Positions 174 through 19,419 of a DNA stretch of 21,992 nt are shown piece by piece. The translations under genes and the position numbers were made by a program. Position 1 is the first letter of the stretch. Every line of letters begins with the position of its first letter. This stretch comes from a bacterium. Its GTDB lineage: Bacteria > BMS3Abin14. The stretch lies in the NCBI GenBank assembly GCA_029210545.1, contig JARGFV010000038.1, forward strand, positions 1 through 21,992, given 5' to 3'. The notes below the pieces were generated by a model that ran no database searches, had not been told where the DNA came from, and was given only the letters and a program-made list of their open reading frames with translations.

Positions 174-980
174 ATGAGTAACTGGAAAACCGAATACATG
201 AAACTCGACGCAATGATCCGCGAAAAGCGTCCCATGATCCACCACATCACCAACTACGTGGTCATGAACGTCACCGCCAACGTGACCCTGGCTATGGGGG
301 CGTCCCCGGTCATGGCCCACGCCAACGAGGAGGTGGAGGAGATGGTGGCCTTTGCCTCTGCCCACGTCCTGAACCCCGGGACCCTTTCGCCCCATTGGAT
401 CACTGCCATGCTGAGTTCCGGGAAAAAGGCCAAAGAGCTGGGAATTCCGATCATCCTGGACCCCGTGGGCGCCGGGGCCACCAAATTTCGCACCGAGACC
501 TGCCTGAAGATCCTGGAAGAGGTCCGGCCCGATGTCATCAGGGGCAACATGGCCGAGGTCATGATCCTGGCAGGAGAAGAGGCCCGGATCCAGGGGGTGG
601 ACTCCATGGAGACAGGGGAGGCGCCTTTGGAGGCTTTCAAGGCCCTCGCCCGACAAACGGGCGCCGTCATCTGCGTCACGGGCCCTGTGGACCACGTCAC
701 CGACGGCGAAACAGCGTACCGGATCGATAACGGACACCCCATGATGGGTAACGTCACCGGGACGGGTTGTTCCTCAACAACTGCAGTGGCGGTCTACTGC
801 GCCGCCGGAGGGGCGAACGCCCGGTCGTGCGCCCTGGGGCTTGCCGTCTTCGGCGCCTGCGGCGAACTGGCCGCCGACCAGAGCACCGGGCCCGGCTCCT
901 TCCAGGTGGCCATCCTGGACGCGCTTTACAATGCCCCGGGAATGGATGTGGGGGGGCGCCTCCGCATTAACGAGCTATAG
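174..980 (+). CDS. thiM: Hydroxyethylthiazole kinase ThiM
   Basis: Phosphorylates 4-methyl-5-(2-hydroxyethyl)thiazole with ATP, the thiazole salvage step of thiamine synthesis, in the cytosol. The 268-residue protein has the usual family length. Visible family features are the N-terminal HHITNYV block (residues 23-29), LNPGTLS, the ILDPVGAGAT segment, VIRGNMAEVMILAGEE, and the GTGCSS motif (GTGC at 196-199) that forms the ribokinase-like anion hole with the catalytic cysteine. The ATG at 174 is preceded by a strong Shine-Dalgarno, GAGGAGGT at 163-170, the only strong one in this operon. It is the first gene of thiM-thiE-thiL-thiD. No TPP riboswitch core is recognisable in the 173 bases upstream within the window; two repeat modules occupy that space instead. 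Identification is confident. Confidence 0.96.
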   Translation: MSNWKTEYMKLDAMIREKRPMIHHITNYVVMNVTANVTLAMGASPVMAHANEEVEEMVAFASAHVLNPGTLSPHWITAMLSSGKKAKELGIPIILDPVGAGATKFRTETCLKILEEVRPDVIRGNMAEVMILAGEEARIQGVDSMETGEAPLEAFKALARQTGAVICVTGPVDHVTDGETAYRIDNGHPMMGNVTGTGCSSTTAVAVYCAAGGANARSCALGLAVFGACGELAADQSTGPGSFQVAILDALYNAPGMDVGGRLRINEL

Positions 981-1049
981 TACTCTGTACCCAGTAGTCA
1001 GAAATCAGATAAGTTCGTACTTGATCTGGCTACTGTCTACTGACTTCTT
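980..1049. repeat. Heptamer-phased tract with inverted copy (thiM-thiE spacer)
   Basis: The spacer reads as consecutive 7-base units: GTACTCT, GTACCCA, GTAGTCA, GAAATCA, GATAAGT (980-1014). It then ends with CTACTGT, CTACTGA, CTTCTTA (1030-1050). The reverse complement of CTACTGA is a cyclic permutation of GTAGTCA, so the same word recurs in inverted orientation. No Shine-Dalgarno for thiE is evident within it. Confidence 0.6.
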
Positions 1050-1050
1050 A

Positions 1051-1704
1051 ATGGATACCATGAAAGCAAAAGCACCTTTCGATCCATTACTGTACTTGGT
1101 GACCGACCCGGAGTTGTCCCTGGGGCGGTCGGAGGTCGAGGTCGTACGGCGGGCCGTCGCAGCCGGCGTCACCATGGTCCAGTACAGGGACAAGAACGCT
1201 TCGACCCGTGTTATGATCGAAAAGACTCGTTCCCTCGCTAAAATCTGCAGGGAAAGCGCAGTACCCCTCATTGTCAACGACAGGCTGGACGTGGCCCTCG
1301 CCGGAGGAGCCCATGGGGTTCACCTTGGCCAGGACGACATGGACCCCGGCGATTGCCATGAAATCGCCGGGACCGGGTTTATCATCGGCGTTTCTGTAAC
1401 AACCGTCGAAGAAGTGAGAAAAGCGGAAAAGGCGGGAGCCGATTACGTCGCCGCCAACGGAGTCTTCCCCACCGGGACCAAGACCGACCTGGGAGAACCG
1501 TTGGGGCTTACCGGCCTGGCCGAACTGGCCGCAGCGACCGACCTGCCCCTTATCGCCATCGGAGGGATCGACGACACCAACGCAGGGCAGATCATTGAGG
1601 CAGGGGGAACTGGAGTTGCACTGGTCTCATTCATCGTAGGGGCAGAAGATATAGAGGGAAGGTGTGGATTGATGTTATCTGCCCTGCATAGAGCTAAGAG
1701 CTAA
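1051..1704 (+). CDS. thiE: Thiamine-phosphate synthase ThiE
   Basis: Condenses HMP diphosphate with thiazole phosphate to give thiamine phosphate; cytosolic TIM barrel. The 217-residue product shows YLVTDPEL at the N-terminus, VQYRDK (a family VQxRxK pyrophosphate-binding motif), IVNDRLDVALAGGAHGVHLG, GVSVTTVEEVRKAEKAGADY, FPTGTKTD and PLIAIGGI. The usual G-x-G-P-x-FPT segment reads AANGVFPTGTK here, a mild deviation. The reading frame is open back to 841 inside thiM, but homology begins near 1051 (ATG), with a second ATG at 1060. Neither has a clear ribosome-binding site, so the exact start is uncertain. The last residues and stop codon fall in a GAGCTAA direct repeat. It is the second gene of the thi operon. 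Confidence 0.94.
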   Translation: MDTMKAKAPFDPLLYLVTDPELSLGRSEVEVVRRAVAAGVTMVQYRDKNASTRVMIEKTRSLAKICRESAVPLIVNDRLDVALAGGAHGVHLGQDDMDPGDCHEIAGTGFIIGVSVTTVEEVRKAEKAGADYVAANGVFPTGTKTDLGEPLGLTGLAELAAATDLPLIAIGGIDDTNAGQIIEAGGTGVALVSFIVGAEDIEGRCGLMLSALHRAKS

Positions 1705-1705
1705 G
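1691..1705. repeat. GAGCTAA heptamer duplication at thiE stop
   Basis: GAGCTAA occurs twice in tandem (1691-1704) plus one further base. It encodes the last codons and the TAA stop of thiE, and lies a few bases before the thiL start, where no good Shine-Dalgarno is seen. Confidence 0.5.
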
Positions 1706-1711
1706 TACATT

Positions 1712-2713
1712 ATGAAAATTTCGGACGTTGGTGAATTCAAACTCATCGAGATGATCGAGGCGAGGGCAGGCCTTCCGTCCTACCCGGTTGTCGTGGGGAT
1801 CGGCGACGACGCCGCCGTCCTGGACGTGGGTCCCCGTACCCAGGTGGTCACCACCACCGACATGCTGGTGGAGGGAGTCCACTTCGGCCGGGAAACCACA
1901 CCACCACGTGACCTGGGATATAAATCCCTTGCTGTCAACCTGAGCGACCTCGCGGCGATGGGGGCCTCTCCGGTCCAGTCGTTCCTTTCCATGGGCCTCA
2001 CCCCCGACACCCGGCTGGCCGATTTGGAGGCGTTCGTGGACGGATTTCTCGAGGCGGGGAAGGGGATCACACTGGCCGGGGGAGACACGGTCTCGTCGCC
2101 TTCCGGCTGGGTCATCAGCGTGACCGTCATGGGCCTTTCACCCTCCGGAAAGGTTCTGCGCCGGGACATGGCGAAAGCAGGGGAAAGGCTTTGGCTATGC
2201 GGCCCTGTGGGCGATGCGGCCGGTGGCCTTTCCATCCTCCTCGGGGAAACGAAGGCCGGGACACCGGAAGACTCGGATTTCCTTGTCAGGCGGCACAACC
2301 GCCCGGAACCAATGGTCCGCATGGGGAAGATCCTCCTGGAAACCGGGTTTTCCGCCTGCGCCATCGACGTCAGCGACGGACTGCTCCAGGACCTGGGTCA
2401 TATCTGCAGAAAAAGCCGGGTTGGCGCCGAGATCGAGACTGAAAAGCTGCCCCTGGGCAGACAACTCCTGGATCTTGCCGATGCCAACGGCAAAGATCCC
2501 CTTGACTGGGCCCTGGCGGGGGGGGAGGACTACAGCCTCCTTTTCACCGTGCCCCCTGAAAAGGAGGAAAAACTGGCCGCGCTGGTACAACGGGAGGAAC
2601 TCGATGCGGTTTCCATCGGACGCATCGTTCCGGTAACCGGCATCCGGGTCACCAGGGACGGCGAGCCGGTGGAAAGGGAAGGAAAACAGGGTTGGGATCA
2701 TTTCTCTCGTTAG
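1712..2713 (+). CDS. thiL: Thiamine-monophosphate kinase ThiL
   Basis: Uses ATP to phosphorylate thiamine phosphate to thiamine diphosphate, the active cofactor. The protein has 333 residues, the normal length, in the PurM/AIR-synthase-like fold. Visible motifs in order are GIGDDAAV (29-36), TTDMLVEGVHF (48-58), NLSDLAAMGASP (76-87), GGDTVSSP, a SDGLLQDLGH metal/substrate-binding motif near residue 219, and GGEDYSLLF near 273. The ATG at 1712 follows the thiE stop by 7 bases, so the two are probably translationally linked. The Shine-Dalgarno is weak. Its presence completes the salvage operon to TPP without a separate thiamine pyrophosphokinase. Confidence 0.96.
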   Translation: MKISDVGEFKLIEMIEARAGLPSYPVVVGIGDDAAVLDVGPRTQVVTTTDMLVEGVHFGRETTPPRDLGYKSLAVNLSDLAAMGASPVQSFLSMGLTPDTRLADLEAFVDGFLEAGKGITLAGGDTVSSPSGWVISVTVMGLSPSGKVLRRDMAKAGERLWLCGPVGDAAGGLSILLGETKAGTPEDSDFLVRRHNRPEPMVRMGKILLETGFSACAIDVSDGLLQDLGHICRKSRVGAEIETEKLPLGRQLLDLADANGKDPLDWALAGGEDYSLLFTVPPEKEEKLAALVQREELDAVSIGRIVPVTGIRVTRDGEPVEREGKQGWDHFSR

Positions 2714-2726
2714 CTTCGCTAACAGT

Positions 2727-2797
2727 GCGAAGAGCGAAGCGCAAAGCGCGAAGGAAATGAGGACTTCCCTTCGTACTTCGTTCTTCGTACTTCGCTC
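2727..2797. repeat. Paired heptamer tracts, direct then inverted (thiL-thiD spacer)
   Basis: Four consecutive heptamers GCGAAGA, GCGAAGC, GCAAAGC, GCGAAGG occupy 2727-2754. After 15 bases come TTCGTAC, TTCGTTC, TTCGTAC, TTCGCTC at 2770-2797. The last unit reversed is GAGCGAA, a cyclic permutation of GCGAAGA, so the second tract is an inverted version of the first. The outer arms 2731-2739 and 2790-2798 pair perfectly over 9 bp. thiD follows without a clear Shine-Dalgarno. Confidence 0.7.
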
Positions 2798-2818
2798 TCT
2801 GAAGCTGAGATCATCGTT

Positions 2819-3613
2819 ATGAAACCTATCTTATTGATCTCAGCTTCAGACAGCAGTTCTGCAGCAGGAATGCAGGTGGACCTGAGGGTGGCCCAGGAAC
2901 TGGGTTTCCCGGCCCGGTGCGCTGTTACGGCACTGACGGTCCAGGGTGACGCCGGAGTCATGCGTATCGACCCGGCCGATCCCGATGCCGTGGGATTGGC
3001 GATCCGGACGGCATTGAGCGATGAACCGGGTATCGCGGCCGTCAAGGTCGGCCTCGTTCCGGAGTCCCGCATCGTCTGGTCCATCGCCTCGGCCCTGTCG
3101 GAAGGGGCTGCCGGCATCCCCGTTGTCGTGGACCCTGTTATCCGGTCCACCTCCGGGTCACAGATGGCCGACAACCGGTCGGGCATCGCCTTATGTGACC
3201 GCATTGTCCCCCTTGGTGCTATTCTCACACCCAACAGGGATGAACTGGCAGCGCTATCCAAAGCGGCAGGGGCCGGCACCAATGAAAGGAAATTGCAGGC
3301 GATGGCCCTGATCGACATAGGGGCGGGCGCCATCCTGGTTACGGGCGGGGACAGCGGGGAGGATCCATGCGTGGATCTCCTTTTCAGCCGTAGCGGGGAT
3401 GAACCGGCCCGCTTTTCCCACCCCAGGGTAGGCGGTCAGACACCCCGCGGCACCGGATGCGCCCTTTCAACGGCGCTGGCAGCCTTCCTCGCAAGCGGCA
3501 TGGAACTGGAAGAAGCCGTGGGACGTGCCGTTGAATATGTCCATGGTAAGATCCAGCGATCGGTATTTATCGGAAAGCAGAGGATGTTGTTCGGGGGTGG
3601 GGGAAGGTTCTAG
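2819..3613 (+). CDS. thiD: Hydroxymethylpyrimidine/phosphomethylpyrimidine kinase ThiD
   Basis: Phosphorylates HMP and then HMP phosphate to HMP diphosphate, the pyrimidine substrate of ThiE. The 264-residue protein is full length for the ribokinase-fold ThiD family. Visible features are the ISASDSSSAAGMQVDL N-terminal substrate loop (residues 7-22), VDPV (104-107), LTPNRDEL (136-143), VTGGD, and the GTGC anion-hole/catalytic motif (211-214). In the first loop the usual glycines are partly replaced by Ser/Ala (SSSAAGMQ rather than SSGGAGIQ), a mild variation. It is the last gene of the thi operon. Its TAG stop lies inside a dispersed repeat shared with 15383-15425, so the repeat forms the gene boundary. 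Start at the ATG at 2819. Confidence 0.94.
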   Translation: MKPILLISASDSSSAAGMQVDLRVAQELGFPARCAVTALTVQGDAGVMRIDPADPDAVGLAIRTALSDEPGIAAVKVGLVPESRIVWSIASALSEGAAGIPVVVDPVIRSTSGSQMADNRSGIALCDRIVPLGAILTPNRDELAALSKAAGAGTNERKLQAMALIDIGAGAILVTGGDSGEDPCVDLLFSRSGDEPARFSHPRVGGQTPRGTGCALSTALAAFLASGMELEEAVGRAVEYVHGKIQRSVFIGKQRMLFGGGGRF

Positions 3614-3708: not shown

Positions 3709-3710
3709 GT

Positions 3711-3858
3711 TGCCCGGATTTAGTCACGAGTGGAGTTTTTCGTTCAGGCAAGGCGACCGGGGAGTGAGCGCGGAGGCATATTCTGGTATGTCGCACAAGC
3801 AAACGACTCGGCAACGCCGCCTGAGCGGAAAAGAACCTCGTGAATAATCCAGGCTAGA
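3711..3858. repeat. ~145-base imperfect palindrome between thiD and glgP
   Basis: Outer arms 3712-3730 and 3837-3855 are near-complementary, including a perfect CACGAG/CTCGTG pair at 3725-3730 and 3837-3842. Inner arms TTTTTCGTTCAGGC (3736-3749) and GCCTGAGCGGAAAA pair with G-U wobbles. A small CATA/TATG palindrome sits near the centre. The element fills the gap between convergent thiD and glgP. It has the size and symmetry of a non-autonomous mobile palindrome (MITE-like), and could also serve as a bidirectional terminator. Confidence 0.6.
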
Positions 3859-3885
3859 TTCCAGACTCCTAGACTCTTAGACCCT
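3855..3885. repeat. Octamer-phased tract at the glgP 3' end
   Basis: The units TAGATTCC, AGACTCCT, AGACTCTT, AGACCCT follow each other with period 8. The TAG stop of glgP (3869-3871, minus strand) and its last few codons lie inside this tract, so the glgP C-terminal tail is written by the repeat. Confidence 0.5.
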
Positions 3886-5941
3886 GCCCCTTCGCCCTGC
3901 TCTTCCCCTCCACCTGCACCGTCTCGGGCTCAACCTTCCAGATGTCCCGGCAGTACTGGGCGATGGCCCTGTCCGAGGAAAAGGGAGCGATGCGGGCCAC
4001 GTTGAGGATGGACTTCCGGGACCAGCCGGGCCGGTCGTTGAAGGCCCGTTCCACGTCCGCCTGGCAGCGGATGTAGTCGGCAAAGTCCTCGAGGACCAGG
4101 AAAGGATCGTTCTCGAGGAGGGAACCGGTCAGCGGAAGGAACAGGGCGTTGTCGCCCGCGGAATACTCTCCGGAGGCGATAAGGTCCACCGCTTCCCGGA
4201 GCATCGGGTCCGACTGATAGTGGTCCCGGGGCCGGTAACCCGATCCCCTGAGATCCTCGACCTCCCCGGCGGTGAGACCGAAGAGAAAAAAGTTTTCCGG
4301 CCGGACCGCTTCCCTGATCTCCACGTTGGCCCCGTCGAGGGTGCCGATGGTGAGGGCCCCGTTTAACGCCAGCTTCATGTTTCCCGTTCCGGAAGCCTCC
4401 ATGCCGGCGGTCGAGATCTGCTGGGAGAGGTCGGCCGCCGGGAAGATGGGCATGGCGTTCTTCACGTTGTAATCGGGAAGGAACACAACCTTCAGCCGGT
4501 CTTTCGTTTCCGGATCGGCGTTCACCCTTTCGGCCACGGAATGGATGAGCTTGATGATGAGCTTGGCCATCCGGTATCCGGGGGCCGCCCTCCCCGAAAA
4601 GATCACCACCCGCGGCGGCGCCTGGTCGCCGGGATCCCGGCGAAGCCGCTGGTGGAGCGCCACGACGTGGAGGATGTTCAGGTGCTGGCGTTTGTACTCG
4701 TGGATCCGTTTGACGTGGACGTCGAAGAGGGCGTCCGGATCCACGACGATCCCCGTCCGGCGCAGGATCTCCCCGGCCAGGGCTTCCTTGCCGGCCCTCT
4801 TGACCGCCCTCCACTCCTCCTGGAAGGAAGGATCCGGGGCAAGGGGTTCGAGGCCCTCCAGCCTTGCCAGATCCGAAACGCAGCCGGGGCCCAGCACATT
4901 GTCCAGAAGGGCTGCCAGTGCGGGGTTGGCCACGGCCACGGCCGGGTGGGTGTCGTTGAGCTGCACCGCGTACTTGCCGGAGAAACCGCCGAGATCACTG
5001 CCGGTCTGCAGGAAGATCCGGATCATGTCCTGGAGGGAGCAGGAGACGAAGAAAAACTGTTGTTCGAGCCGCAGCCGCTTTCCCCGCATCGGTTCGTCGT
5101 TGGGGTACAGGATCTTCGTGATGTTCTCGGAGTCGATCTTGTCCTCCACCGCCCGCCAGTAGTCCCCCACGTTGAAGGCCTCGAAATCGAAGGATTCCGC
5201 TGCCTCGGCCTTCCACAGGCGCAGGAGGTTGGCCGTGTTGACCAGGTGCCCGGGAATATAGGTGTCGTAAGCGACCCCCTTGACGACATGGGCCGGGACC
5301 CAGCGGACCCGGTGGTTCCCGTTCCCGTCGGTGAACATCTCCGTGTATCCCTCGATGGGAACCTCGTGCTGGATCTCGGGCCGGGCGATCTCCCACGGGT
5401 TTCCCTTGCCCAGCCACTTGTCCGTCAGTTCCACCTGCCATCCGTCCCGGATGGCCTGGTCGAAGATGCCGAACTCGTACCGGATGCCGTAGCCGATGGC
5501 AGGGATCTGCAGGGTCGCCATGGACTCCATGAAGCAGGCCGCGAGCCGCCCGAGACCCCCGTTGCCGAGGCCCGGTTCCTCCTCCTGTTTGGCGATCCCG
5601 TCGAAGGAAAGACCCAGGTCGGCCATGGCCTGGCGGGCCTCGTCCAGCAGACCGAGGTTAAGAAGGTTCCGGGCGAGATGGGGGCCGGGGAGGTACTCGG
5701 CGGAGAGGTAGCAGGCGGTGCGGCAGCGTTGACGGTAATAGGTCTCGCCGGTGGCCATGCCGCGTCGATGGAGCCTGTCCCGGACCGTGAAGGCAAGGGC
5801 GAGATACCTGTCGTTGTCGGTGGCCACTTCGGGGAACCGCCCCAGGTGATTGTACAGTTTCTCGGTAAAGACCTTCCTGATCGCCTCAACGGTGTCCAAG
5901 GCGACGGGCGGCGGCGGTATGTTGACCCTGTTCCTTCCCAT
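3869..5941 (-). CDS. glgP: Glycogen/alpha-glucan phosphorylase with internal in-frame deletion
   Basis: GT35 family; normally releases glucose-1-phosphate from alpha-1,4-glucans using phosphate and pyridoxal phosphate, in the cytosol. Family landmarks are clear: ACYLSAEYLPG, GLGNGGLGRLAACFMESMAT (residues 125-143), IRYEFGIF, DGWQVE, ILYPNDEP, VQLNDTHPA (326-334), VKRIHEYKRQ (410-419), and EASGTGNMKLALNGAL with the PLP lysine at 523. The protein has 690 residues against about 820-840 for the family. Right after VQLNDTHPAVAV (residue ~337) it jumps to ANPALAALLDNV, which in homologues follows the NGVTPRRWLLQ region. About 130 residues are absent, including the TNHTLLPEALE and NGVTPRR segments that contact the glucose, so activity is doubtful. 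The ATG at 5941 has an excellent AAAGGAGG at 5949-5956. A TATAAT box lies at 5962-5967 on the same strand. Confidence 0.88.
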   Translation of the reverse strand: MGRNRVNIPPPPVALDTVEAIRKVFTEKLYNHLGRFPEVATDNDRYLALAFTVRDRLHRRGMATGETYYRQRCRTACYLSAEYLPGPHLARNLLNLGLLDEARQAMADLGLSFDGIAKQEEEPGLGNGGLGRLAACFMESMATLQIPAIGYGIRYEFGIFDQAIRDGWQVELTDKWLGKGNPWEIARPEIQHEVPIEGYTEMFTDGNGNHRVRWVPAHVVKGVAYDTYIPGHLVNTANLLRLWKAEAAESFDFEAFNVGDYWRAVEDKIDSENITKILYPNDEPMRGKRLRLEQQFFFVSCSLQDMIRIFLQTGSDLGGFSGKYAVQLNDTHPAVAVANPALAALLDNVLGPGCVSDLARLEGLEPLAPDPSFQEEWRAVKRAGKEALAGEILRRTGIVVDPDALFDVHVKRIHEYKRQHLNILHVVALHQRLRRDPGDQAPPRVVIFSGRAAPGYRMAKLIIKLIHSVAERVNADPETKDRLKVVFLPDYNVKNAMPIFPAADLSQQISTAGMEASGTGNMKLALNGALTIGTLDGANVEIREAVRPENFFLFGLTAGEVEDLRGSGYRPRDHYQSDPMLREAVDLIASGEYSAGDNALFLPLTGSLLENDPFLVLEDFADYIRCQADVERAFNDRPGWSRKSILNVARIAPFSSDRAIAQYCRDIWKVEPETVQVEGKSRAKGQGLRV

Positions 5942-6181: not shown

Positions 6182-6236
6182 TGGAATGCGTCGCGGGTTG
6201 GATTACAGATCATCCGGCAATGGTAGTCATTGATTT

Positions 6237-6302
6237 GTGAGGAAAGGGAAAACGACGCTTTTCCCTTTCCCCGGGACATTAATGAGCCAGGAAAAGTCCC
6301 GG
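6237..6302 (+). repeat. Two-hairpin repeat module, copy 3 (altered second hairpin)
   Basis: Hairpin A is identical in both arms to that of copy 2 (6241-6252 with 6259-6270), with the loop CGACGC in place of CCACGC. The second hairpin keeps only the left-arm remnant GAAAAGTCC. A different pairing, CCGGGAC (6271-6277) with GTCCCGG (6296-6302), has taken over. The leading GTGAG is also conserved. It lies downstream of the TRAP permease gene. Confidence 0.6.
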
Positions 6303-6424
6303 CCAGCCGGTCCTCCAGCATGGCGCCCCAGTCGGTGGGATTGAGGGCACGGCTCACTTCCCGGATGCTTGCGAGGTCGACGTTGTCATCCTTTTCGTCG
6401 TTGCAGGTCTCAGAAACCGTGGGG
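6303..6424 (-). pseudogene. Possible coding remnant after dctQM
   Basis: On the minus strand, in a frame different from dctQM, bases 6424-6303 read as an uninterrupted protein-like stretch containing NDEKDDNVDLASIREVSRAL and NPTDWGAMLEDRLAG, with GC-rich third positions. No ATG or good ribosome-binding site starts it (only a GTG at 6357), and it runs straight into repeat copy 3. It could be the C-terminal remnant of a gene cut by the repeat, or a chance open frame. I do not recognise the family. Confidence 0.25.
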
Positions 6425-10416: not shown

Positions 10417-10444
10417 TTTACTCGTTCTCTTTTACTCGTTCTCT
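10417..10444. repeat. Perfect 14-base tandem duplication
   Basis: TTTACTCGTTCTCT is repeated twice with no mismatch, and the 14-mer itself resembles two related 7-mers. It lies just upstream of the TRAP promoter -35. Confidence 0.7.
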
Positions 10445-10564
10445 TCAGCCCGTCTTTCCGTCTACGACCCCCGGAACGGTCAGGTATGTTTGAAGGTTCG
10501 GCAGGCGTACTATGGTTTGTTCGAGATGATCCGGCGGAGGATCCGGATCGTGTCCATGGCGTAA

Positions 10565-10837: not shown

Positions 10838-10901
10838 AACCTGACGAACGTTGCCGGGGAGCGGGAAAGGGGTCCTGGGCTCCGAGGCACCGCTGATCGT
10901 T

Positions 10902-10964
10902 TAATAGAGTCGCAAAAAGTCCAATCCAGGGACTTTTCGCTCCAAGGAAAGGATTTTTTACGTG
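10902..10964 (-). repeat. Two-hairpin repeat module, copy 4 (inverted, partial)
   Basis: On the minus strand this matches the 3' part of copy 2: half of hairpin A, then all of hairpin B (arms 10912-10922 and 10930-10940, loop AATCCAG with one extra base). The AAGGAAAGG that serves as the otsA Shine-Dalgarno (10944-10952) is the complement of this repeat's hairpin A arm, so the repeat provides the translation signal. Confidence 0.65.
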
Positions 10965-12467
10965 ACCCAGTCGAAAAATACTCGACTCGTCGCCATCTCC
11001 AACCGCCTCCCCGTCGCCCTTTCCAGAAAGGGTGACGCATGGTCGGTGGAGCCCGGTTCTGGCGGCCTGGTGACCGCTATGGCCCCTGTCCTGAGGGACC
11101 GGGGAGGGCTCTGGATCGGGTGGCCCGGCACCTCGGAGCAGGTTGATTTAGACACGGTTCTCGGGGACGCCTCCCTGACCACCGGATACGACCTCATCCC
11201 CGTGGAAATGAACGCGGAGGAGGTCACCAGCTATTATGAAGGGTTCTCCAACCAGATCATCTGGCCCCTCTTTCACGACATGCATTCCCACTGCACCTTT
11301 GACCCGGAGTTCTGGTATTCCTACATCCGGGTCAACGCCAAGTTCGCCGACCGGATTCTGGACCACACCTCCAACAAGGACTACATCTGGGTTCACGATT
11401 ACCACCTCTTTCACGTCGGCAAGTTTTTGCGGGAGCGGGAACGCGGCTACCGGATCGGCTTTTTCCTGCACATTCCCTTTCCCCCCATGGACATCTTCGT
11501 CAGACTCCCCTGGAGGATGGAGATCCTCGACGCCCTGATGGAGTACGATCTGGTTGGGTTCCAGACCTACCGTGACCGGAAGAATTTCCTCGACTGCCTT
11601 CAGCGCTCATACCCCAACACCAAGGTCACCGGGCGGGGAACGGTGGTCCAGGTCGCCTTCAAGGACCGTGTCGTGCGGGTGGGCTACTTCCCTATCAGCA
11701 TTGACTACCGGAACTTCGTCGAGGGCACAAACTCCGAAGGGACCATGGAATGGTATCAGTCCCTCAAGGAGAAGTTCAGTAACCACACCGTCATCCTCGG
11801 CGTGGATCGCATGGATTTCACCAAAGGTATCCAGGAACGGCTCGAGGGGTACCGGAACACCCTGGAGCGCTATCCGGACTTGAGGGAAAAGGTCATTTTC
11901 ACCCAGGTCCTGGTCCCGAGCCGCCACTCCCTGACCAGTTACCAGATCCTCAAAGCGCGCATCGACAGGCTCATCGGAGAGATCAACGGCCAGTTCGCGA
12001 CCCTGGAGTGGGACCCGATCCGTTATCTTTACCGCAGCCTCGAGCACAACGAACTGCTGGCCCTGTACCACCTCGCCGACATCGCCCTGGTCACCCCGTT
12101 AAAGGACGGAATGAACCTGGTAGCCAAGGAGTACTGCGCCTGCAGCCTTCAGAACAACGGAGTCCTCATCCTCAGCGAGTTTGCCGGCGCGGCGGCTGAG
12201 CTTCACAGCGGTGCGCTGCTGGTCAACCCCCACGACTCCGAGGGGATCGCCGACGCGCTTTACTACGCCTTTACCATGGACTACGATGAGAAACAGACCC
12301 GGATGAAAAAAATGCGCCAGATCGTCCGCCGCAGGGATATCTTCCGGTGGGTCGACTCCTTCCTGCAGGCTGCCTTCGCCCGGAACCTCAACGACTTTCC
12401 GCCGGTGAAAGAAGAGTATGTTCCGGGAGTCAGCGGCGAGGATTTCGCCGGCATGCTGAAGGAGTAG
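10962..12467 (+). CDS. otsA: Trehalose-6-phosphate synthase (GT20, OtsA type)
   Basis: Transfers glucose from a nucleotide sugar to glucose-6-phosphate, giving trehalose-6-phosphate; cytosolic, retaining GT-B enzyme. The 501-residue protein keeps the family signatures: SNRLPVAL and SGGLVTAM at the N-terminus (13-20, 33-40), GLWIGWPG (49-56), WVHDYHLF (143-150), FFLHIPFPP (167-175), GVDRMDFTKGI (280-290) with the phosphate-binding Arg283 and Lys288, and LKDGMNLVAKE (380-390) with the acidic donor-binding residues. Start is the GTG at 10962, the only one that fits the AAGGAAAGG at 10944-10952. It is the first gene of a four-gene cluster ending in a matching phosphatase. Glucosylglycerol-phosphate synthases share this fold, so acceptor specificity is inferred. 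Confidence 0.9.
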   Translation: MTQSKNTRLVAISNRLPVALSRKGDAWSVEPGSGGLVTAMAPVLRDRGGLWIGWPGTSEQVDLDTVLGDASLTTGYDLIPVEMNAEEVTSYYEGFSNQIIWPLFHDMHSHCTFDPEFWYSYIRVNAKFADRILDHTSNKDYIWVHDYHLFHVGKFLRERERGYRIGFFLHIPFPPMDIFVRLPWRMEILDALMEYDLVGFQTYRDRKNFLDCLQRSYPNTKVTGRGTVVQVAFKDRVVRVGYFPISIDYRNFVEGTNSEGTMEWYQSLKEKFSNHTVILGVDRMDFTKGIQERLEGYRNTLERYPDLREKVIFTQVLVPSRHSLTSYQILKARIDRLIGEINGQFATLEWDPIRYLYRSLEHNELLALYHLADIALVTPLKDGMNLVAKEYCACSLQNNGVLILSEFAGAAAELHSGALLVNPHDSEGIADALYYAFTMDYDEKQTRMKKMRQIVRRRDIFRWVDSFLQAAFARNLNDFPPVKEEYVPGVSGEDFAGMLKE

Positions 12468-12510
12468 ATCTTCCAGCGACAACGTCCTGGGTTCAGAGAG
12501 AGATTGTCTG

Positions 12511-13197
12511 ATGGCTATAAAAACCGACGCACCCGAGAAACAGCTTCAGGAAAGCTTCCAGGTGTTCGACTGCGCCCCGGTCTTCATCGCCACAGGGGTG
12601 CGGGCTTTCACCCTCCGGGAACTGATCGAGAGCCTGCGGGTCGTCCACCTCTGGAGTATCCAGCACCACTTCTGGGGGCGACTGCTCAGGCCGGCTGTCG
12701 AGGAACCGGAGTACAGCAACGATTTCGCCGCCTGGACGGGCAGGGAACTGAGGGACAAGGTGCTCGCGGAGCGACTGAGCGTCATTTACCCCTCGGACTA
12801 CACCGACATCGAGGAACTTCGGGGGGAGATCATCGACGTCATCGAGAACCGCCTTGACGAGGACCTCACATCCCACACCGCCACGGCACCCCAGCCCTTC
12901 CACTTCCTCCGCTCCCAGCTGGTTGTTTTCGACACCGGGATCAGGATCAGGGAGCCTTCCGAACTCCCCGACGCGATCAAGAGGATGTCGGAGGGGAGCA
13001 TCTTTTACCACTTCATCGAAGCCCGCAGGCGGACTGTGAAGGGCCGCGACGATTTCTCGGCCTGGCTCGAGTTGAACCCAGGTGACTACCATCAGCTCTG
13101 CGCGGGCCTGACAGCCATCGACCCCTACTTCTCCTCACTCGGGGAGATACGTGAGCGCCTCGAAAACCTGTTAAGGCAGGGCTGTCCCCAGGCCTGA
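12511..13197 (+). CDS. DUF5752 family protein
   Basis: Function unknown. The 228-residue soluble protein has no signal peptide or membrane segment. Recognisable features are FTLRELIESLRVVH near the N-terminus, a histidine/aromatic run SIQHHFWGRLL, YSNDFAAWTGRELRDKVLAERL, and SEGSIFYHFIEARRR. I recognise it as the DUF5752 type usually found beside trehalose synthases. It lies 43 bases after otsA and 48 before treT on the same strand, so it is probably co-transcribed. The pattern of conserved His, Trp and Tyr, and a fixed place between two glycosyltransferases, would fit an accessory or regulatory partner; that is inference. The ATG at 12511 has a weak AGAGAGA upstream. Confidence 0.85.
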   Translation: MAIKTDAPEKQLQESFQVFDCAPVFIATGVRAFTLRELIESLRVVHLWSIQHHFWGRLLRPAVEEPEYSNDFAAWTGRELRDKVLAERLSVIYPSDYTDIEELRGEIIDVIENRLDEDLTSHTATAPQPFHFLRSQLVVFDTGIRIREPSELPDAIKRMSEGSIFYHFIEARRRTVKGRDDFSAWLELNPGDYHQLCAGLTAIDPYFSSLGEIRERLENLLRQGCPQA

Positions 13198-13245
13198 CGA
13201 CGTGGGCCTTTAAACCCGATCCTCGCATCCCGCGGAGGTTACAGT

Positions 13246-14496
13246 TTGTCAAATCTTCTCGACAGATATGGAGAAACAGCAGGAAAGGACGTCATCAGGC
13301 AGCTTCGTCTTCTTGCCCGGGAACTGGAGGGGGTCCGGGTCCTCCACGTCAACTCCACCAAGGAGGGCGGGGGCGTAGCCGAGATCCTTCACAAGATGAT
13401 CCCCCTGCTGCGGGACCTGGGGATCGAAGCCGGCTGGGAGGTCATCACCGGCAGCCCGGCCTTCTACCAGTGCACCAAGTGGATGCACAACACCCTCCAG
13501 GGTGAGAGGACGGTCATAACCGGGGAGCTACTCGACGTATACGAAAAAACCAACCAGGAGTTCGCCGAACGGATGCGCGGGCCCCTTGCCGAGGCCGACA
13601 TTGTCTTCATCCACGACCCGCAGCCCGCCGCGGCCATCGGGCACATCCCCGAACGGAAGGGGCGCTGGGTCTGGAGGTGCCACATCGATATCAGCAGGCC
13701 CCAGCGTACGGTCTGGAAATATCTCCGAAAACACGTGGTCCAATACGATTCGAGCATCTTTTCCATGCAGCGGTTTTCCCAGAGGCTGCCCCACATCCAG
13801 TATCTGATCCCCCCGAGCATCGACCCGTTGAGCGAAAAAAACGTGGACCTGTCCGCCCGGGAGATACTGGAGGAGATCTCCCCCTTCAACCTGGCCCCGG
13901 ACATCCCCCTGCTCCTCCAGGTATCCAGGTACGACCGGTTCAAGGACCCCATAGGGGTCATCGAGGCCTACAAGATGGTCAGAAAACTCACACCGGTGCA
14001 GATTGTTCTGGCAGGGGGAGGCGCCAGCGATGATCCCGAGGGGGAAGCTGTTCTCGAGGAGGTGCGCCGGGCCGCCGGGGAAGATCCCGATATCCACGTC
14101 CTCCAGCTACCCAACGACGCTCACCGGACCATCAACGCCCTTCAGCGGCGGGCCGACATCATCATCCAGAAGTCGACAAAGGAGGGGTTCGGGCTCACCG
14201 TGACCGAGGGGATGTGGAAGGGTAAGCCGGTCATCGGCGGTGAGGTCGGCGGTATCCGGCTGCAGGTCATGGACCATAAAACCGGGTTCCTGGTCAACTC
14301 TCCGGAAGGCGCGGCCCTGAGGATCCGATACCTTCTGCACCGCCCCGACGTGCGACTCCGGATGGGATGCCAGGCCAGGGAGTTCGTACGGGACAACTTC
14401 CTCCTTACCCGCCATCTCCGAGACTACCTCGCTCTGATGGTCAGCCTCCTCAAAGGCAAGGAACAAGACCCCTACCTTGAGATCCATGTCTCATAG
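13246..14496 (+). CDS. treT: Trehalose synthase, GT4 (TreT type)
   Basis: Retaining GT-B enzyme of the family that joins an NDP-glucose to glucose to make trehalose directly. The 416-residue protein carries the TreT-like VNSTKEGGGVAE (35-46), VFIHDPQPAA, WRCHIDIS, PPSIDP, QVSRYDRFKDPIGVI beginning the C-terminal domain, and the EGFGLTVTEG GT4 donor-binding motif (313-322). The start is TTG at 13246, supported by GGAGGT at 13234-13239, 6 bases upstream; no suitable ATG is nearby. Its neighbours are the TPS/TPP pair, so this locus has a direct and a two-step route to the same sugar. Exact donor and acceptor are not proven by sequence. Confidence 0.88.
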   Translation: MSNLLDRYGETAGKDVIRQLRLLARELEGVRVLHVNSTKEGGGVAEILHKMIPLLRDLGIEAGWEVITGSPAFYQCTKWMHNTLQGERTVITGELLDVYEKTNQEFAERMRGPLAEADIVFIHDPQPAAAIGHIPERKGRWVWRCHIDISRPQRTVWKYLRKHVVQYDSSIFSMQRFSQRLPHIQYLIPPSIDPLSEKNVDLSAREILEEISPFNLAPDIPLLLQVSRYDRFKDPIGVIEAYKMVRKLTPVQIVLAGGGASDDPEGEAVLEEVRRAAGEDPDIHVLQLPNDAHRTINALQRRADIIIQKSTKEGFGLTVTEGMWKGKPVIGGEVGGIRLQVMDHKTGFLVNSPEGAALRIRYLLHRPDVRLRMGCQAREFVRDNFLLTRHLRDYLALMVSLLKGKEQDPYLEIHVS

Positions 14497-15295
14497 ACCC
14501 CTCCCGCCACCCGGGAAAAAATTCTGGGAAGACCTCAAAGCCGCCCGGAGCAAGGTGTTGTTCCTCGACTACGACGGCACCCTGGCCCCCTTCCGGGAGA
14601 ATCGTCGCGAGGCGACCCCCTACCCTGGAGTCCGGGAGATACTCGAAAAGATTCTGGAGTCCGGCGTGTGCCGGGTGGTCCTCATCAGCGGCCGTTGGAC
14701 AAAGGATCTGCCGCCTCTCCTGGGGTTGAAAAAACTTCCCGAGATCTGGGGGTCCCATGGCCTCGAACGGCTTTTCCCGAACGGCCGCTACGAGGTGGCT
14801 GCCCTGAGCGAGGAAGAGATACGGGGGCTGGCCGAGGCGGATGGCCTGATCACCGAAGCCGGTCTCGGCCGTCACAGCGAGCAGAAACCTGGCTGCCGCG
14901 CCCTGCACTGGAGAGGCCTGGACAAAAATGCCCGTGACCGGTTGATCAGCCGTATTGAGGAAAAGCTGGCCCCTCTTGCGCGTAAAACAGGGCTGGTCCT
15001 CAAGGAGTTCGACGGAGGCCTGGAGTTGCGCGCACCGGGCCGTGACAAGGGAGACGCCGTCCAAACGGTACTCACCGAGGAAGGGCCCGGCGCCGCGTGT
15101 GCCTATCTCGGCGACGACCTGACCGACGAAGACGCCTTTAAGGCACTCGGAGGCCGGGGGCTTGGGATCCTGGTGCGCGAACAGTGGCGGCCGACAGCGG
15201 CGTCAGCCTGGCTGCAACCGCCCTGGGAGCTCATACGGTTCCTTGAACGGTGGGCTGAGGTCTGCACCGGCGCACAAGGGAAAGGTCCAAAATAG
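14486..15295 (+). CDS. otsB: Trehalose-6-phosphate phosphatase (OtsB)
   Basis: HAD-superfamily phosphatase that removes phosphate from trehalose-6-phosphate. Visible HAD motifs are LDYDGTLAPF (motif I, catalytic Asp28 and Asp30), LISGR (motif II region) and GDDLTDEDAFKAL (motif IV, metal-binding acids). The EFDGGLELRAPGRDKG stretch has the usual lysine before the last motif. The product is 269 residues from the ATG at 14486, which overlaps the treT end by 11 bases. A TTG at 14477 is an alternative, giving 272 residues. The overlap implies coupled expression with treT. It is the last gene of the cluster; no clear rho-independent terminator follows. Confidence 0.92.
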   Translation: MSHRPLPPPGKKFWEDLKAARSKVLFLDYDGTLAPFRENRREATPYPGVREILEKILESGVCRVVLISGRWTKDLPPLLGLKKLPEIWGSHGLERLFPNGRYEVAALSEEEIRGLAEADGLITEAGLGRHSEQKPGCRALHWRGLDKNARDRLISRIEEKLAPLARKTGLVLKEFDGGLELRAPGRDKGDAVQTVLTEEGPGAACAYLGDDLTDEDAFKALGGRGLGILVREQWRPTAASAWLQPPWELIRFLERWAEVCTGAQGKGPK

Positions 15296-15342
15296 GAGGA
15301 GCGGAAAAAAGGAGAAATCACGCCATCGGCTTGATCGAAGGT

Positions 15343-15367
15343 TGATGACTTCGCAAAAAGTCCATCA
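15343..15367 (-). repeat. GACTTTTTGCGA repeat, short copy 5
   Basis: TGATGACTT (15343-15351) pairs with AAGTCCATCA (15358-15367) with one bulged base, around CGCAAA. On the minus strand it reads TGATGGACTTTTTGCGAAG, sharing the core of hairpin B in the two-hairpin modules. Confidence 0.5.
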
Positions 15368-15381
15368 TCTTTAATTGCCAC

Positions 15382-15425
15382 ACAGTTAGCTGACATCTCA
15401 TTTGCATCATGAATAAAGCGGGCTA
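15382..15425 (+). repeat. Dispersed CATTTGCATCATGAAT repeat, second copy
   Basis: About 44 bases matching, in opposite orientation, the sequence at 3611-3654 after thiD. It is followed at 15446-15472 by a small CCCACC/GGTGGG hairpin. The spacer 15296-15537 holds these repeats and no gene I can support. Confidence 0.65.
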
Positions 15426-15537
15426 GGAGTCTATGTCCTGCCTGCCCACCGTAGTTTCAACGAAGGTGGGAGTTTGTCGAAGGATGGGCGTGATGTGCAG
15501 GTTTCCCGACACGCTGCCAGGCTCATCAAAAAGCCCG

Positions 15538-15821: not shown

Positions 15822-15959
15822 TTCCACCCTTCGATCACGCCGTCCGTCTTCGTTCTTCGAACTTCACCGTGACAAGTTGGCGTGACTCAGGGTCTACGAC
15901 TTCCACCCTTCGATCACCCTGTTGGCGTGACTCAGGGCCTTCGGCTTTCCACTTTCCAC
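15822..15959. repeat. Interleaved direct repeats
   Basis: TTCCACCCTTCGATCAC occurs at 15822-15838 and 15901-15917. TTGGCGTGACTCAGGG occurs at 15877-15892 and 15922-15937. TTTCCAC is a tandem heptamer at 15946-15959. No gene is seen in this spacer (15793-16000). Confidence 0.65.
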
Positions 15960-16000
15960 TTCTTGTCCTCCATAGCCTTTGGCGAAGGAGGATCCACTCT

Positions 16001-16504: not shown

Positions 16505-16582
16505 CTTCCCTTCCGGGGGCAGGAAGGAGGGAGGAGGGAGGAGCAGACGCGGGGACACGGGGACATCACGCCTCTGGCGTGA
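16505..16582. repeat. AGGGAGG heptamer tract and TCACGCC hairpin
   Basis: AGGAAGG, AGGGAGG, AGGGAGG follow each other at 16521-16541, preceded by an inverted TTCCCTTCC. GACGCGGGGACACGGGGAC follows. A TCACGCC/GGCGTGA hairpin lies at 16566-16582, like that at 10565-10581. Part of the 682-base gene-free spacer 16382-17063. Confidence 0.5.
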
Positions 16583-16739: not shown

Positions 16740-16792
16740 AGGAGTCTGTCGGAGAACCTCCCTGTTTTTTAACAGGGAGGGCACAGACTCCT
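16740..16792. repeat. Two nested perfect inverted repeats
   Basis: Outer arms AGGAGTCTGT (16740-16749) and ACAGACTCCT (16783-16792) enclose inner arms CCTCCCTGTT (16757-16766) and AACAGGGAGG (16771-16780) with a TTTT loop. Both stems are 10 bp and perfect. It lacks a terminal U run, so it is not a typical intrinsic terminator. Confidence 0.65.
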
Positions 16793-16837
16793 AGTGTTTG
16801 GAAAAATCTTGCATCGGGGTTCACGGATTTCCCCTCG

Positions 16838-16931
16838 TTGTCATCGCAAGCTGTCCATTAAGCGAAGCGATCCCGGGAAATGGTGCAGGAACCTGAGACT
16901 GCTTCGGACAAATATCGCCTCGCAGTGACAA
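16838..16931. repeat. GTCATCGCAAG...CTCGCAGTGACA dispersed palindromic element
   Basis: About 94 bases bounded by imperfect terminal inverted repeats: TTGTCATCGCAAG at 16838-16850 and CTCGCAGTGACAA at 16919-16931. The inside contains GCGAAGCGATC and GAGACTGCTTCGGA. This is the layout of a widespread small palindromic element in bacterial spacers. A half-copy (GTCATCGCAAG) lies near 20074. Confidence 0.55.
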
Positions 16932-16961
16932 CCTGCGGGTTTCCTTCCCCTTTTCCCTCCA

Positions 16962-17048
16962 CACGCTCCCACGCTCCCACGCCTGTTCTTCCCCGCGTCC
17001 CCGCGTCGGCTCTTCCTCCCTCTTCCCTTCTCCTTTCCCCCTTCTCCC
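16962..17048. repeat. Octamer and polypyrimidine heptamer tracts
   Basis: CACGCTCC is repeated 2.6 times from 16962 to 16982. CCGCGTCC and CCGCGTCG are adjacent at about 16993-17008. They are followed by a C/T-only stretch (about 17009-17048) that, read on the other strand, falls into AGGGAGA-like heptamers. It ends just upstream of the membrane-protein gene. Confidence 0.55.
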
Positions 17049-17063
17049 TGTTATACTGTCTCC

Positions 17064-17414
17064 ATGTTCATCAACCGTCTCATCGGCGGCACCCTTGCGG
17101 CCGCATCGTTCATCATGCTCGGTCTGGCCATGTCCTCCCTGGGCAGCGGAGGGGTCGGGGTCCAGGTCATGGACCGCATGGGGCTGCCCTACATCCTCGC
17201 CTTCCTGGCGGCGCAGTTTGTGCTGCTGGTCATCTTCGTCACTCCCGCTGAACGGCCGGTGCCCGTTCTTCTCCTTGTCGGGGGTACGGTCGTGTACATG
17301 GTGATCCTTGGTGTAAAGGGAGGGGGCAGTTCGGTTCAGCACTCCCTTTACGCGGGGAGCGCCTTCAGCGGCCTGGCAACGGGGCTGTTCGCGATGCTGG
17401 GCGGGAAGGGATAG
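17064..17414 (+). CDS. Small integral membrane protein
   Basis: 116 residues, almost entirely hydrophobic, with four probable membrane helices: LIGGTLAAASFIMLGLAMSS, YILAFLAAQFVLLVIFV, VPVLLLVGGTVVYMVILGV and SLYAGSAFSGLATGLFAML. I do not recognise a family. No Shine-Dalgarno precedes the ATG. A TATACT -10-like box sits at 17052-17057, only six bases before the start codon, so the transcript could be leaderless. The coding frame is GC-rich like its neighbours and open from the ATG. It is a single gene whose 3' end faces the convergent FMN reductase. Confidence 0.6.
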   Translation: MFINRLIGGTLAAASFIMLGLAMSSLGSGGVGVQVMDRMGLPYILAFLAAQFVLLVIFVTPAERPVPVLLLVGGTVVYMVILGVKGGGSSVQHSLYAGSAFSGLATGLFAMLGGKG

Positions 17415-17421
17415 GGCAAAA

Positions 17422-17469
17422 TGGGGAATGTGGAAAGATCACCTTTCCCCTTCCACTTTCGACTTTTCT
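17422..17469. repeat. Heptamer tract between convergent genes
   Basis: CCTTTCC, CCTTCCA, CTTTCGA, CTTTTCT follow each other at 17442-17469, preceded by GTGGAAAG, which pairs with them (GGAAAG/CTTTCC, 17432-17437 with 17443-17448). It sits exactly between the two convergent stop codons and may act as a terminator. Confidence 0.5.
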
Positions 17470-18215
17470 TATCGATATTCCGGATTCGGATTGTCGAAGC
17501 GGCACCCGGCCTCCCACTTGGACCGCTGGTTGCCGTGGGCCGGGATCCCGCCGGCGTCCTTGATCATCCTGGCCATGTGCAGGAGGTTCCATGTCATGAA
17601 GGTGGTGTTGCGGTTGGTGAAGTCATTCTCCGGCCCGCCTGAGCCCGGGTCCAGGTAGGAGGGGCCGGGACCGGCCTCACCCAGCCAGCACGCGTCGGCC
17701 TGGGGCGGGATGACGTAGCCCAGGTGCTGCAGGGAGTACAGGATGTTCATGGCGCAGTGTTTGGCGCCGTCCTCGTTGCCTGTGATGAGGCACCCCCCCA
17801 CCCTTCCGTAGTAAGCGTACTGCCCGGCCTCGTTGAGGTCCCCTGAAGAGGCATAGAGGCGCTCGATGACCCTGGTGCACACCGAGGACTTCTCCCCCAG
17901 CCAGATGGGGGAGGTAATGACCAGGATATCGGCGGCCAGGACCTTCTTGTAGATCGTGGGCCATTCGTCCGTCTCCCACCCGCGCTCCGTCATGTCCGGG
18001 TAAACACCGGTGGCTATGTCATGATCCACCGGACGCAGGGACTGGACGATGACGCCGTTCCTTTCCATGATCTCCGCGGACATGCGGATGAGTCCCTCGG
18101 TGTGGGACATCTCGGGACTCCTTTTGAGGGTGCAGTTAAGAAACAGGGCCGAGATGTCCGTAAAGTCCCATTTGCTCTCCTCGCACAGTTGAATCTGCTT
18201 GTCGATCAGGGGCAT
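17469..18215 (-). CDS. NAD(P)H-dependent FMN reductase / flavodoxin-family protein
   Basis: Cytosolic flavoprotein of the flavodoxin-like FMN reductase fold; substrate unknown. From the ATG at 18215 it has 248 residues. ALFLNCTLKRSPEMSHTEGL is the first strand and FMN phosphate loop. DILVITSPIWLGEKSSV is the third-strand segment with the P-x-W motif beside the flavin. VIERLY and GGCLITGNEDGAKHCAMNIL follow, then GYVIPPQADACWLGEAGPG, which resembles many NADPH-dependent FMN reductases. The open frame extends upstream to 18356, but that part is a repeat tract (TTCCAGG units), and GGAG precedes the chosen ATG. Convergent with the small membrane protein. Family assignment is firm; the reaction is inferred. 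Confidence 0.85.
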   Translation of the reverse strand: MPLIDKQIQLCEESKWDFTDISALFLNCTLKRSPEMSHTEGLIRMSAEIMERNGVIVQSLRPVDHDIATGVYPDMTERGWETDEWPTIYKKVLAADILVITSPIWLGEKSSVCTRVIERLYASSGDLNEAGQYAYYGRVGGCLITGNEDGAKHCAMNILYSLQHLGYVIPPQADACWLGEAGPGPSYLDPGSGGPENDFTNRNTTFMTWNLLHMARMIKDAGGIPAHGNQRSKWEAGCRFDNPNPEYR

Positions 18216-18231
18216 GGTCGCTTCGCTCCAG

Positions 18232-18259
18232 TTCCAGGTTCCATATTCCAGGTTCCAGG
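18232..18259. repeat. TTCCAGG heptamer tract
   Basis: TTCCAGG, TTCCATA, TTCCAGG, TTCCAGG: four in-phase units directly upstream of the FMN reductase start, on a background with no other gene signal. Confidence 0.7.
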
Positions 18260-18394
18260 TTTGAGGGTAAGTGAAAAGGTCAGTGGTCTGCGGACTATTA
18301 TACCAATATCTGTGGACAACGGGGAAGGGGCAATAGAACGAGTGCATCAAGAGCAAAAGTGCGGGAGTGCATGGAGTGCACTACTGCACTACTT

Positions 18395-19042
18395 TTAAAA
18401 ACGTACCACCACCTTCGCCATGGCTGTCCCGTTCATGGCCACCTTGTCGGCTTCGATCATAATGGTTCCATCACGGTAGACCGTCGTGATGCCAACCTCG
18501 TCGGGAAATACGTCAGCCGCCGAAAGTTCGAACGCCACGTTCTTCTCATTGAACAGGCTTCCGCGCGTGTCGAAACGGGCGGCCAGTTCCAGGTTGTCGT
18601 CGACGCGGCAGGCTACGACGATCTTCCACCAACACCTCGAATCAGGCTCCTTCCCGGCAGCGGCCTGAACCGATCTCCCCCTCATCTTCCACTGCCGGGA
18701 GAACTCCCTGACCTCGGCCACCAGGTCCACCCCGCCCGTCAGTTCGGCCCACACGAAGCTCACCATGGAAACCATGTTGTCGGGACCGTACCCGGCTGCT
18801 ATCCGAGCGTTTTCAGGGTCATTGATCGGTGAGGAATATCCGGGAGCCCTGGATTCCTCAACCCGGGGAAGGGCGAGACGGCGCAGGGCCGGCGTATCGG
18901 CCGTCAAGGGGCTTGCCAGGTCCAGGCGAAAGGCGGCCCACTCGACACCGGGAACCTCCAGGTTCGCCCCAGGTCCCGCACTACCCAGGCACAGGGCGGG
19001 GAGGATCAGGATCAATATCATCTGCAGAACGGTCTTTTTCAT
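18395..19042 (-). CDS. Exported hypothetical protein
   Basis: 215 residues from the ATG at 19042, which has GAGGAG about 9 bases upstream; an upstream start at 19063 is less likely. A signal peptide is evident (MKKTVLQMILILILPALCLG, cleavage near residue 21-24). The mature protein is hydrophilic with mixed charge. It has a patch AAGYGPDNMVSMVSFVWAELTGGV and a C-terminal beta-like region, VFPDEVGITTVYRDGTIMIEADKVAMN. No repeats or membrane segments beyond the signal, and no recognised family. It is alone on its strand, separated from the FMN reductase by repeat sequence. Probably periplasmic. Confidence 0.7.
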   Translation of the reverse strand: MKKTVLQMILILILPALCLGSAGPGANLEVPGVEWAAFRLDLASPLTADTPALRRLALPRVEESRAPGYSSPINDPENARIAAGYGPDNMVSMVSFVWAELTGGVDLVAEVREFSRQWKMRGRSVQAAAGKEPDSRCWWKIVVACRVDDNLELAARFDTRGSLFNEKNVAFELSAADVFPDEVGITTVYRDGTIMIEADKVAMNGTAMAKVVVRF

Positions 19043-19100
19043 CGGGACGGCTCCTCGGCTCACGGTTACCCTTGGTATCGCAAGGGCCGTACCAGGTTAA

Positions 19101-19155
19101 GGGAGGAGGGAGGAGGAAGGAATCAGGCCAAAGTCCAAAGATCAAAGACCAAAGA
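19101..19155. repeat. Two heptamer tracts (GGGAGGA and CCAAAGA)
   Basis: GGGAGGA, GGGAGGA, GGAAGGA at 19101-19121. CCAAAGT, CCAAAGA, TCAAAGA, CCAAAGA at 19128-19155. The first word also occurs at 16528-16541. They lie in the 573-base spacer between two exported-protein genes. Confidence 0.7.
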
Positions 19156-19220
19156 CCCGGGAACAAATAGGCAGGGCCGCCCAACGGTCTGAAACAAGAG
19201 GAGAAATGCGGACGCGGGGA

Positions 19221-19252
19221 GCGGGGGAGCATGGGTGCGGGGGAGCATGAGT
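19221..19252. repeat. 16-base tandem duplication
   Basis: GCGGGGGAGCATGGGT is repeated once with a single change; an octamer substructure is visible. Confidence 0.6.
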
Positions 19253-19257
19253 GTACT

Positions 19258-19389
19258 GTTCACTTAAAACATGAACAACGCTTTTTCAGCATGTCGATAC
19301 CCTTGACGGCGCTGAAAAAGCGTTCGAATTTGAAACAGGCGTAGGGAAACGAGAGAGCCGGCGTTACCTGCGGATCAGGTACCACCGGC
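19258..19389. other. Run of three strong hairpins, possible structured RNA
   Basis: GTTCA/TGAAC (19258-19276) is followed by a perfect 14-bp stem (19277-19290 with 19311-19324, 20-base loop). A compound hairpin follows: GAGCCGG (19353-19359) with CCGGCTC (19383-19389), enclosing ACCTG/CAGGT (19364-19368 with 19374-19378). No coding frame fits. It could be a small RNA, a decayed mobile palindrome, or a leader of the gene at 19616. Tentative. Confidence 0.3.
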
Positions 19390-19398
19390 TCCGGTAAC

Positions 19399-19419
19399 AA
19401 GGGAAAAGGGGAAAGGTGA
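19399..19419. repeat. AAGGGGA heptamer tract
   Basis: AAGGGAA, AAGGGGA, AAGGTGA in phase, 7 bases each, just after the hairpin run. Confidence 0.5.

Follow-up and report, generated by a model that had tools for sequence, protein, structure and literature searches.

What holds a repeat period constant while the repeated word changes from one gap between genes to the next? The question is raised by contig JARGFV010000038.1 of the bacterial assembly GCA_029210545.1 (GTDB lineage BMS3Abin14), analysed over its whole length of 21,992 nucleotides (nt) and referred to here as the window. Within its assembly (2.72 Mb, 241 contigs, 97% complete; genome label G000) the window bears the contig label C38, and its spacers carry degenerate tandem arrays of seven-nucleotide units (heptads), along with fewer arrays of eight-nucleotide units (octads). 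The heptad tracts in the gaps between genes are confirmed as real, with about three to four repeats each. An initial annotation of the window, made from the sequence alone, had described them as sharing a period while differing in word, and both properties were borne out among the loci analysed.

A seven-nucleotide period confined to spacers

Genome-level statistics were drawn from 407 kb, or 15% of the G000 genome, of which 85% is coding and 68.5 kb is spacer; the split was made with a gene caller written for this analysis, and its gene calls are approximate. At a distance (lag) of 7 nt, identity within spacers was 0.302, compared with 0.256 expected from dinucleotide shuffles (z=30.4), with harmonics at lags 14 (z=21) and 21 and small values at lags 5, 6, 9 and 10. 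Exact two-unit runs at lag 7 numbered 101 against 6.2 in shuffled spacers, and degenerate runs 95 against 2.1; lag 8 gave a lesser excess (27 exact two-unit runs against 3.4), and about two runs per lag in the spectrum are apparently an artefact of masked stretches of N. The autocorrelation that the initial annotation had looked to for support therefore shows, in this sample, the lag-7 excess over shuffled spacers and the smaller one at lag 8. Coding DNA displays the expected lag multiples of 3 nt and few lag-7 runs, the degenerate runs being about 20-fold less dense there than in spacers.

The spacers of the window amount to 4.0 kb and hold ten lag-7 tracts with an X-drop score of at least 8, where 300 dinucleotide shuffles gave 0.11 on average and 2 at most. 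Four tracts were found at lag 8 (0.08 expected) and zero tracts of that score at lags 5, 6, 10 and 11. Tested singly against shuffled segments of equal length, 13 of the 14 tracts first listed stand as real, two of them weakly, and the period-8 tracts hold (p 0.000 to 0.006); the tract at 10417–10444 lacks the 7-nt period (Table 1). Arrays show no preference for any arrangement of the flanking genes, with 1.5 to 2.1 arrays per kb in convergent, divergent and co-directional spacers alike. A terminator or promoter role was rejected, the arrays being without gene-orientation preference.

Near-perfect arrays most often comprise three or four units, and few exceed five. One heptad phase carries a disproportionate part of the variation within an array (0.58 to 0.69 of it, with 0.45 to 0.48 expected), partly because duplicated units share one variant. 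Inverted partners were found for 36 of 141 arrays in the family member G008 (25%, null 3.9%) and for 18 of 115 in G000 (16%, null 6.5%), and two such pairs lie in the window. Most paired stems measure 20 to 31 nt, 27 to 31 nt being commonest in G008, and their mismatches likewise gather in one heptad phase; the loops range from 15 to more than 100 nt and are unrelated among loci. Many thresholds were fixed in the course of the analysis, and the moderate enrichments, those of inverted pairs in G000 and of variation in one phase, need an independent check. In arrays of at least five units, three genomes out of four have adjacent units that match each other better than permuted ones, the gain being 0.21 to 0.33 of 7 positions (about 3 standard errors in each genome).

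Words, relatives and turnover

Lag-7 arrays are present in most sampled members of the family, at about 1.4 per 20 kb in G009, 5.7 in G000, 7.2 in G008 and 7.7 in G001, and non-harmonic lags are low in these members, lag 8 excepted. Zero lag-7 arrays were found in 20 kb of G010, and the G005 sequence was masked. Among 80 named loci of other bacteria most are without arrays, the exceptions being L035, L037 and L045, together with L050, which carries octads. The trait is rich within the clade and sporadic outside it, matching the published pattern for long bacterial simple repeats.

The idea that each locus has its own word survives in part: words are many, but they are heavily reused. The 115 arrays of the G000 sample use 58 words, and 1.8% of spacer pairs share an exact word, compared with 0.11% for random spacer 7-mers (about 17-fold); CTTTCCACTTTCCA is present 22 times in the G000 assembly and its reversed control 3 times. 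The vocabulary is lineage-specific, ACTCTGG prevailing in G001, G004 and G009, and AGATCTC and ACACTAG in G008. Only 8 of the 115 G000 arrays have a flank in common with another array, in agreement with the earlier view that the arrays are not copies of one long element. Same-word arrays that share flanks are rare in G000 (2 of 59) and in G008 (6 of 84); in G001, 107 of 175 arrays have a flank in common with another array.

The cross-family word search covered one word, AATCCAA, used by G001 and G007. It was found in 13 of 193 genomes (reversed control near zero), with dozens of copies in G040 and G051, both of unrelated families. This recurrence argues against purely local generation, an origin that the initial annotation had suggested and that also fits poorly with the reuse of words at unlinked sites. 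With a 13-nt probe, chosen to lessen length bias, exact AATCCAA runs in G040 peak at three overlapping matches (27 nt); a single array reaches four, and none extends beyond about 34 nt.

Turnover was observed between G004 and G009, which belong to one genus, sister to that of the window, and were aligned over 73 kb at 82 to 97% identity. One orthologous array has 2.3 versus 4.4 units (G004 C3:14059 / G009 C10:142812-142842), and another, at G004 C44:78499, has about 5.9 units versus about 3 in G009. These two clean cases uphold the expected change of unit number among relatives, in the sister genus rather than in the window's own spacers. At a further orthologous site length is kept and half the units are lost, and a GTTGGAC array in G004 is broken by a palindromic repeat missing from G009. 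Arrays of the clade thus vary in unit number and also take insertions. A second interspersed sequence, CCCTTCGACAGGCTCAGGGC, interrupts CTCTGGA heptad arrays at G004 C2:6450-6850 and C2:54121-54165, and the matching G009 sites are without it. As for the window itself, the trehalose operon (10964–15285) has collinear counterparts at 86 to 87% nucleotide identity in two further genera of the family, with short, array-free spacers, and the remainder aligns little to the compared stretches of relatives.

Origin of the arrays

The restriction to spacers, the lack of orientation preference, the change in unit number and the similarity of neighbouring units point towards slippage or template switching with a 7-nt step, and we tentatively propose, with somewhat less than even confidence, that the arrays arise in this way in unconstrained spacers. 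A replicating strand would slip or switch template by 7-nt steps where the DNA is unconstrained, leaving arrays. Loops of 7–8 nt are expected to evade mismatch repair. Short arrays may then seed others through ectopic or fold-back template switching, by which words would spread without their flanks and inverted pairs would be left behind, and instability or selection would hold arrays near 30 nt. The proposal requires no function of the arrays. Loss of mismatch repair was rejected as a cause, MutS1 (928 aa) and MutS2 (823 aa) both being intact in G000.

Several points weigh against this proposal. Memoryless slippage predicts declining unit counts, whereas a peak at three to four units and a ceiling are observed, and plain slippage leaves the size ceiling, the shared vocabulary and the inverted pairing unexplained. 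Of the slippage or template-switching origin first suggested, the unit-number change speaks in favour, but plain slippage does not predict the limit of about four to five units or the inverted pairs. Inverted pairing in G001 is without excess over the null, and in G000 arrays picked at lag 14 similarity does not decay with the distance between units (0.854 for units one apart, 0.847 for units three apart). Among single copies, words used at least three times exceed unused words in frequency by a factor of only about 1.1 to 1.6; seed abundance was rejected as the cause of word choice, single-copy frequency being too weak a predictor. Finally, we infer both the 7-nt loop size and the ectopic seeding.

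Doubtful, and first among the alternatives, is an operator-like function, in which about four copies of a 6-nt site plus one free base, often in opposite-strand pairs, would be bound by a nucleoid or regulatory protein. Arrays that stop near four units, the gathering of variation and stem mismatches in one heptad phase and the opposite-strand layout would all suit such sites, as would the four-heptad and paired octad sites of Geobacter metallireducens, where IHF/HU was suggested (PMC2700814). A binding site is harder to reconcile with about 50 words per genome sample, with a gene context without preference and with the rapid turnover in sister species. An expansion of HU/IHF was rejected, as the family has 2–3 of these genes, unremarkable against 1–5 in other genomes.

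It is unlikely that the arrays are instead dispersing modules, about 30 nt long and single or in inverted pairs, copied whole between spacers in the manner of miniature inverted-repeat transposable elements (MITEs). The flank sharing of G001 would be expected of such modules, and many of its arrays retain their unit-variant order; at many sites in G051, AATCCAA arms about 32 nt long often enclose a loop about 14 nt long. Yet flanks are rarely shared by same-word arrays in G000 and G008, and a MITE-type shared body or flanks beyond the array, seen for many G001 arrays, did not characterise those of G000 (8 of 115 with a common flank). Neither target duplication nor a dedicated transposase was found (G000 has two Y1 transposase genes, with no tie to the arrays shown), and within a pair one arm does not match the other at the free base.

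More general still, and rather improbable, is the idea that arrays about four heptads in size (27–33 nt, single or in inverted pairs, each heptad being a fixed hexamer with a free base) might form one class of bacterial spacer element, with a constant layout, changing words, a cross-family vocabulary and machinery controlling period and length. Writing of the arrays from an RNA template by a reverse transcriptase or telomerase-like enzyme would suit the constant period and limited vocabulary but is very hard to credit, with zero RVT_1 matches in G000, G001, G004, G007 and G008, all of which bear arrays. Chance or spacer composition, a negligible prospect, is ruled out by the lag-7 z of 30, lags 5, 6, 9 and 10 being near background at the same composition.

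Known repeat systems and other features of the window

The G000 tracts fit the class of heptanucleotide short tandemly repeated repetitive sequences (STRRs) or long simple sequence repeats (SSRs), being 7-nt tandems above chance, mainly intergenic and with words reused at many loci; the likeness to STRRs drawn by the initial annotation is supported. Closer in layout than the cyanobacteria, and the nearest precedent, is G. metallireducens, which has elements built of four heptanucleotides in tandem (GGGACCG, 49 copies) and classes 1–3 of three to five tandem 7–8-mers in opposite-strand pairs at variable distance, annotated as putative regulatory elements (PMC2700814). Shared with it is the number of about four units (peak 3–4 here); opposite-strand pairing is strong in G008, moderate in G000 and without excess in G001. 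It differs in having few words, with 16 to 49 copies each, whereas here there are about 50 words per 400 kb, the arrays are mostly unpaired and words are reused without flank homology.

In most genomes heptanucleotides outnumber every other class of long SSR, and polymerase slippage has been proposed (Mrazek 2007, as cited in PMC4692102 and PMC4679880); the arrays here differ in that they are degenerate, lie near three to four units and have a vocabulary that extends across the family. TAACTGA repeats of Beggiatoaceae, some cyanobacteria and Bacteroidetes (2–6 units) are likewise mostly intergenic, with a word scattered across phyla and singletons that do not predict arrays (PMC4679880), but they use a single word, most sets lying upstream of start codons, whereas here words are many and positional bias is absent. 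The intergenic GGGAATC / GGGGA(C/T)T heptads of Xanthomonas and Nostoc, usually of four units, differ in length between related species (PMC4692102); they are G-rich quadruplex formers, unlike most words here. Cyanobacterial STRRs, as cited in PMC4692102, share the trait of several heptamer words per genome (three in Calothrix), the words here being other and far more numerous. The repeat class and the paired four-unit layout are therefore already published (cyanobacterial STRRs, heptanucleotide SSRs, G. metallireducens), and new here are the many words under one layout in one genome and across the family. Heptamer dominance in bacterial simple repeats has been a standing question since 2007. 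In a complete genome and several relatives, the family offers independent arrays by the hundred, in which a sharp 7-nt step goes together with a ceiling on size and with inverted pairing, and for these arrays the slippage, dispersal and operator hypotheses predict different, testable outcomes.

Encoded in the window are thiM/E/L/D, glycogen phosphorylase, a TRAP transporter, trehalose metabolism and katG, the names being read off translations and those of glycogen phosphorylase and katG also backed by PDB matches. The window is without any match in Rfam.

Table 1 Repeat tracts of the window (TRF, Tandem Repeats Finder; p from shuffled segments)
Feature	Positions	Strand	Evidence and remarks
Weak heptad tract folding as inverted pair	982–1048		thiM-thiE spacer; lag-7 score 7, p 0.015; DNA fold -9.7 kcal/mol, z -2.6, 0/200 shuffles equally good
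AGAGCTA duplication, 2.3 units	1690–1705	+	TRF; p 0.001; runs across thiE stop codon, hence partly outside spacer
Inverted pair of four-heptad arrays	2724–2798		lag-7 p 0.001; fold z -2.75; arms 2724–2753 (GCGAAGN) and 2769–2798 (CTTCGNN), 30 nt, 22/30 complementary; loop 15 nt
Period-8 tract CTAGACTC	3854–3882	+	TRF; p<0.001
Exact 14-mer duplication	10417–10445	+	Not heptamer-phased: lag-7 score 2, lag-14 score 15
CTTTCCA heptad array within dispersed repeat	15936–15961	+	lag-7 p<=0.002; related copies on contigs C9, C50, C58
AGGGAGG heptad array	16521–16543	+	TRF; p<0.001
GACACGGG octad array	16546–16565	+	TRF; word belongs to a common 8-mer family of G000
Two octad arrays, CTCCCACG and TCCCCGCG	16957–17007	+	TRF; shuffle test
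CTTTCCA-like tract, weak as direct repeat	17442–17469	+	p 0.012
TCCAGGT/TTCCAGG heptad array, 5 units	18227–18261	+	TRF; p<0.001; upstream of minus-strand gene, likely gene start near 18209
AGGGAGG heptad array	19100–19121	+	TRF; p<=0.002
CCAAAGA heptad array, 4.7 units	19125–19157	+	p<=0.002
GGGGAGCG/GGGTGCGG octad array	19216–19253	+	TRF; p 0.006
AAGGGGA-like heptad array	19399–19423	+	p<=0.002

Two genes of the window have internal in-frame gaps. The katG gene (20500–21924, minus strand; 474 aa) is shorter than solved catalase-peroxidases by a block of about 230 aa; at this site G008 is about 700 bp longer, and the two stretches that match have 8 nt of the window in common. The gap may reflect a deletion between short direct repeats, for which the 8-nt overlap is as expected, or an assembly error. 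Glycogen phosphorylase (3869–5941, minus strand; 690 aa) is missing a block of about 140 aa of its solved relatives between matched halves, the second internal in-frame deletion in the window.

Interspersed palindromic repeats lie at 1–173, 6225–6303, 10900–10952, 15338–15430 and 21922–21992 (for example, GAAAGGGAAAACCACGCTTTTCCCTTTC and GTCGCAAAAAGTCC...GGACTTTTTGCGA). This repeat family occupies many spacers and contig ends and is 84 to 100% alike in relatives of the family, and one copy splits a heptamer array in G004. A degenerate 34-bp tandem repeat (3.6 copies) lies at 20101–20225 and is about 95% similar to part of contig C58.

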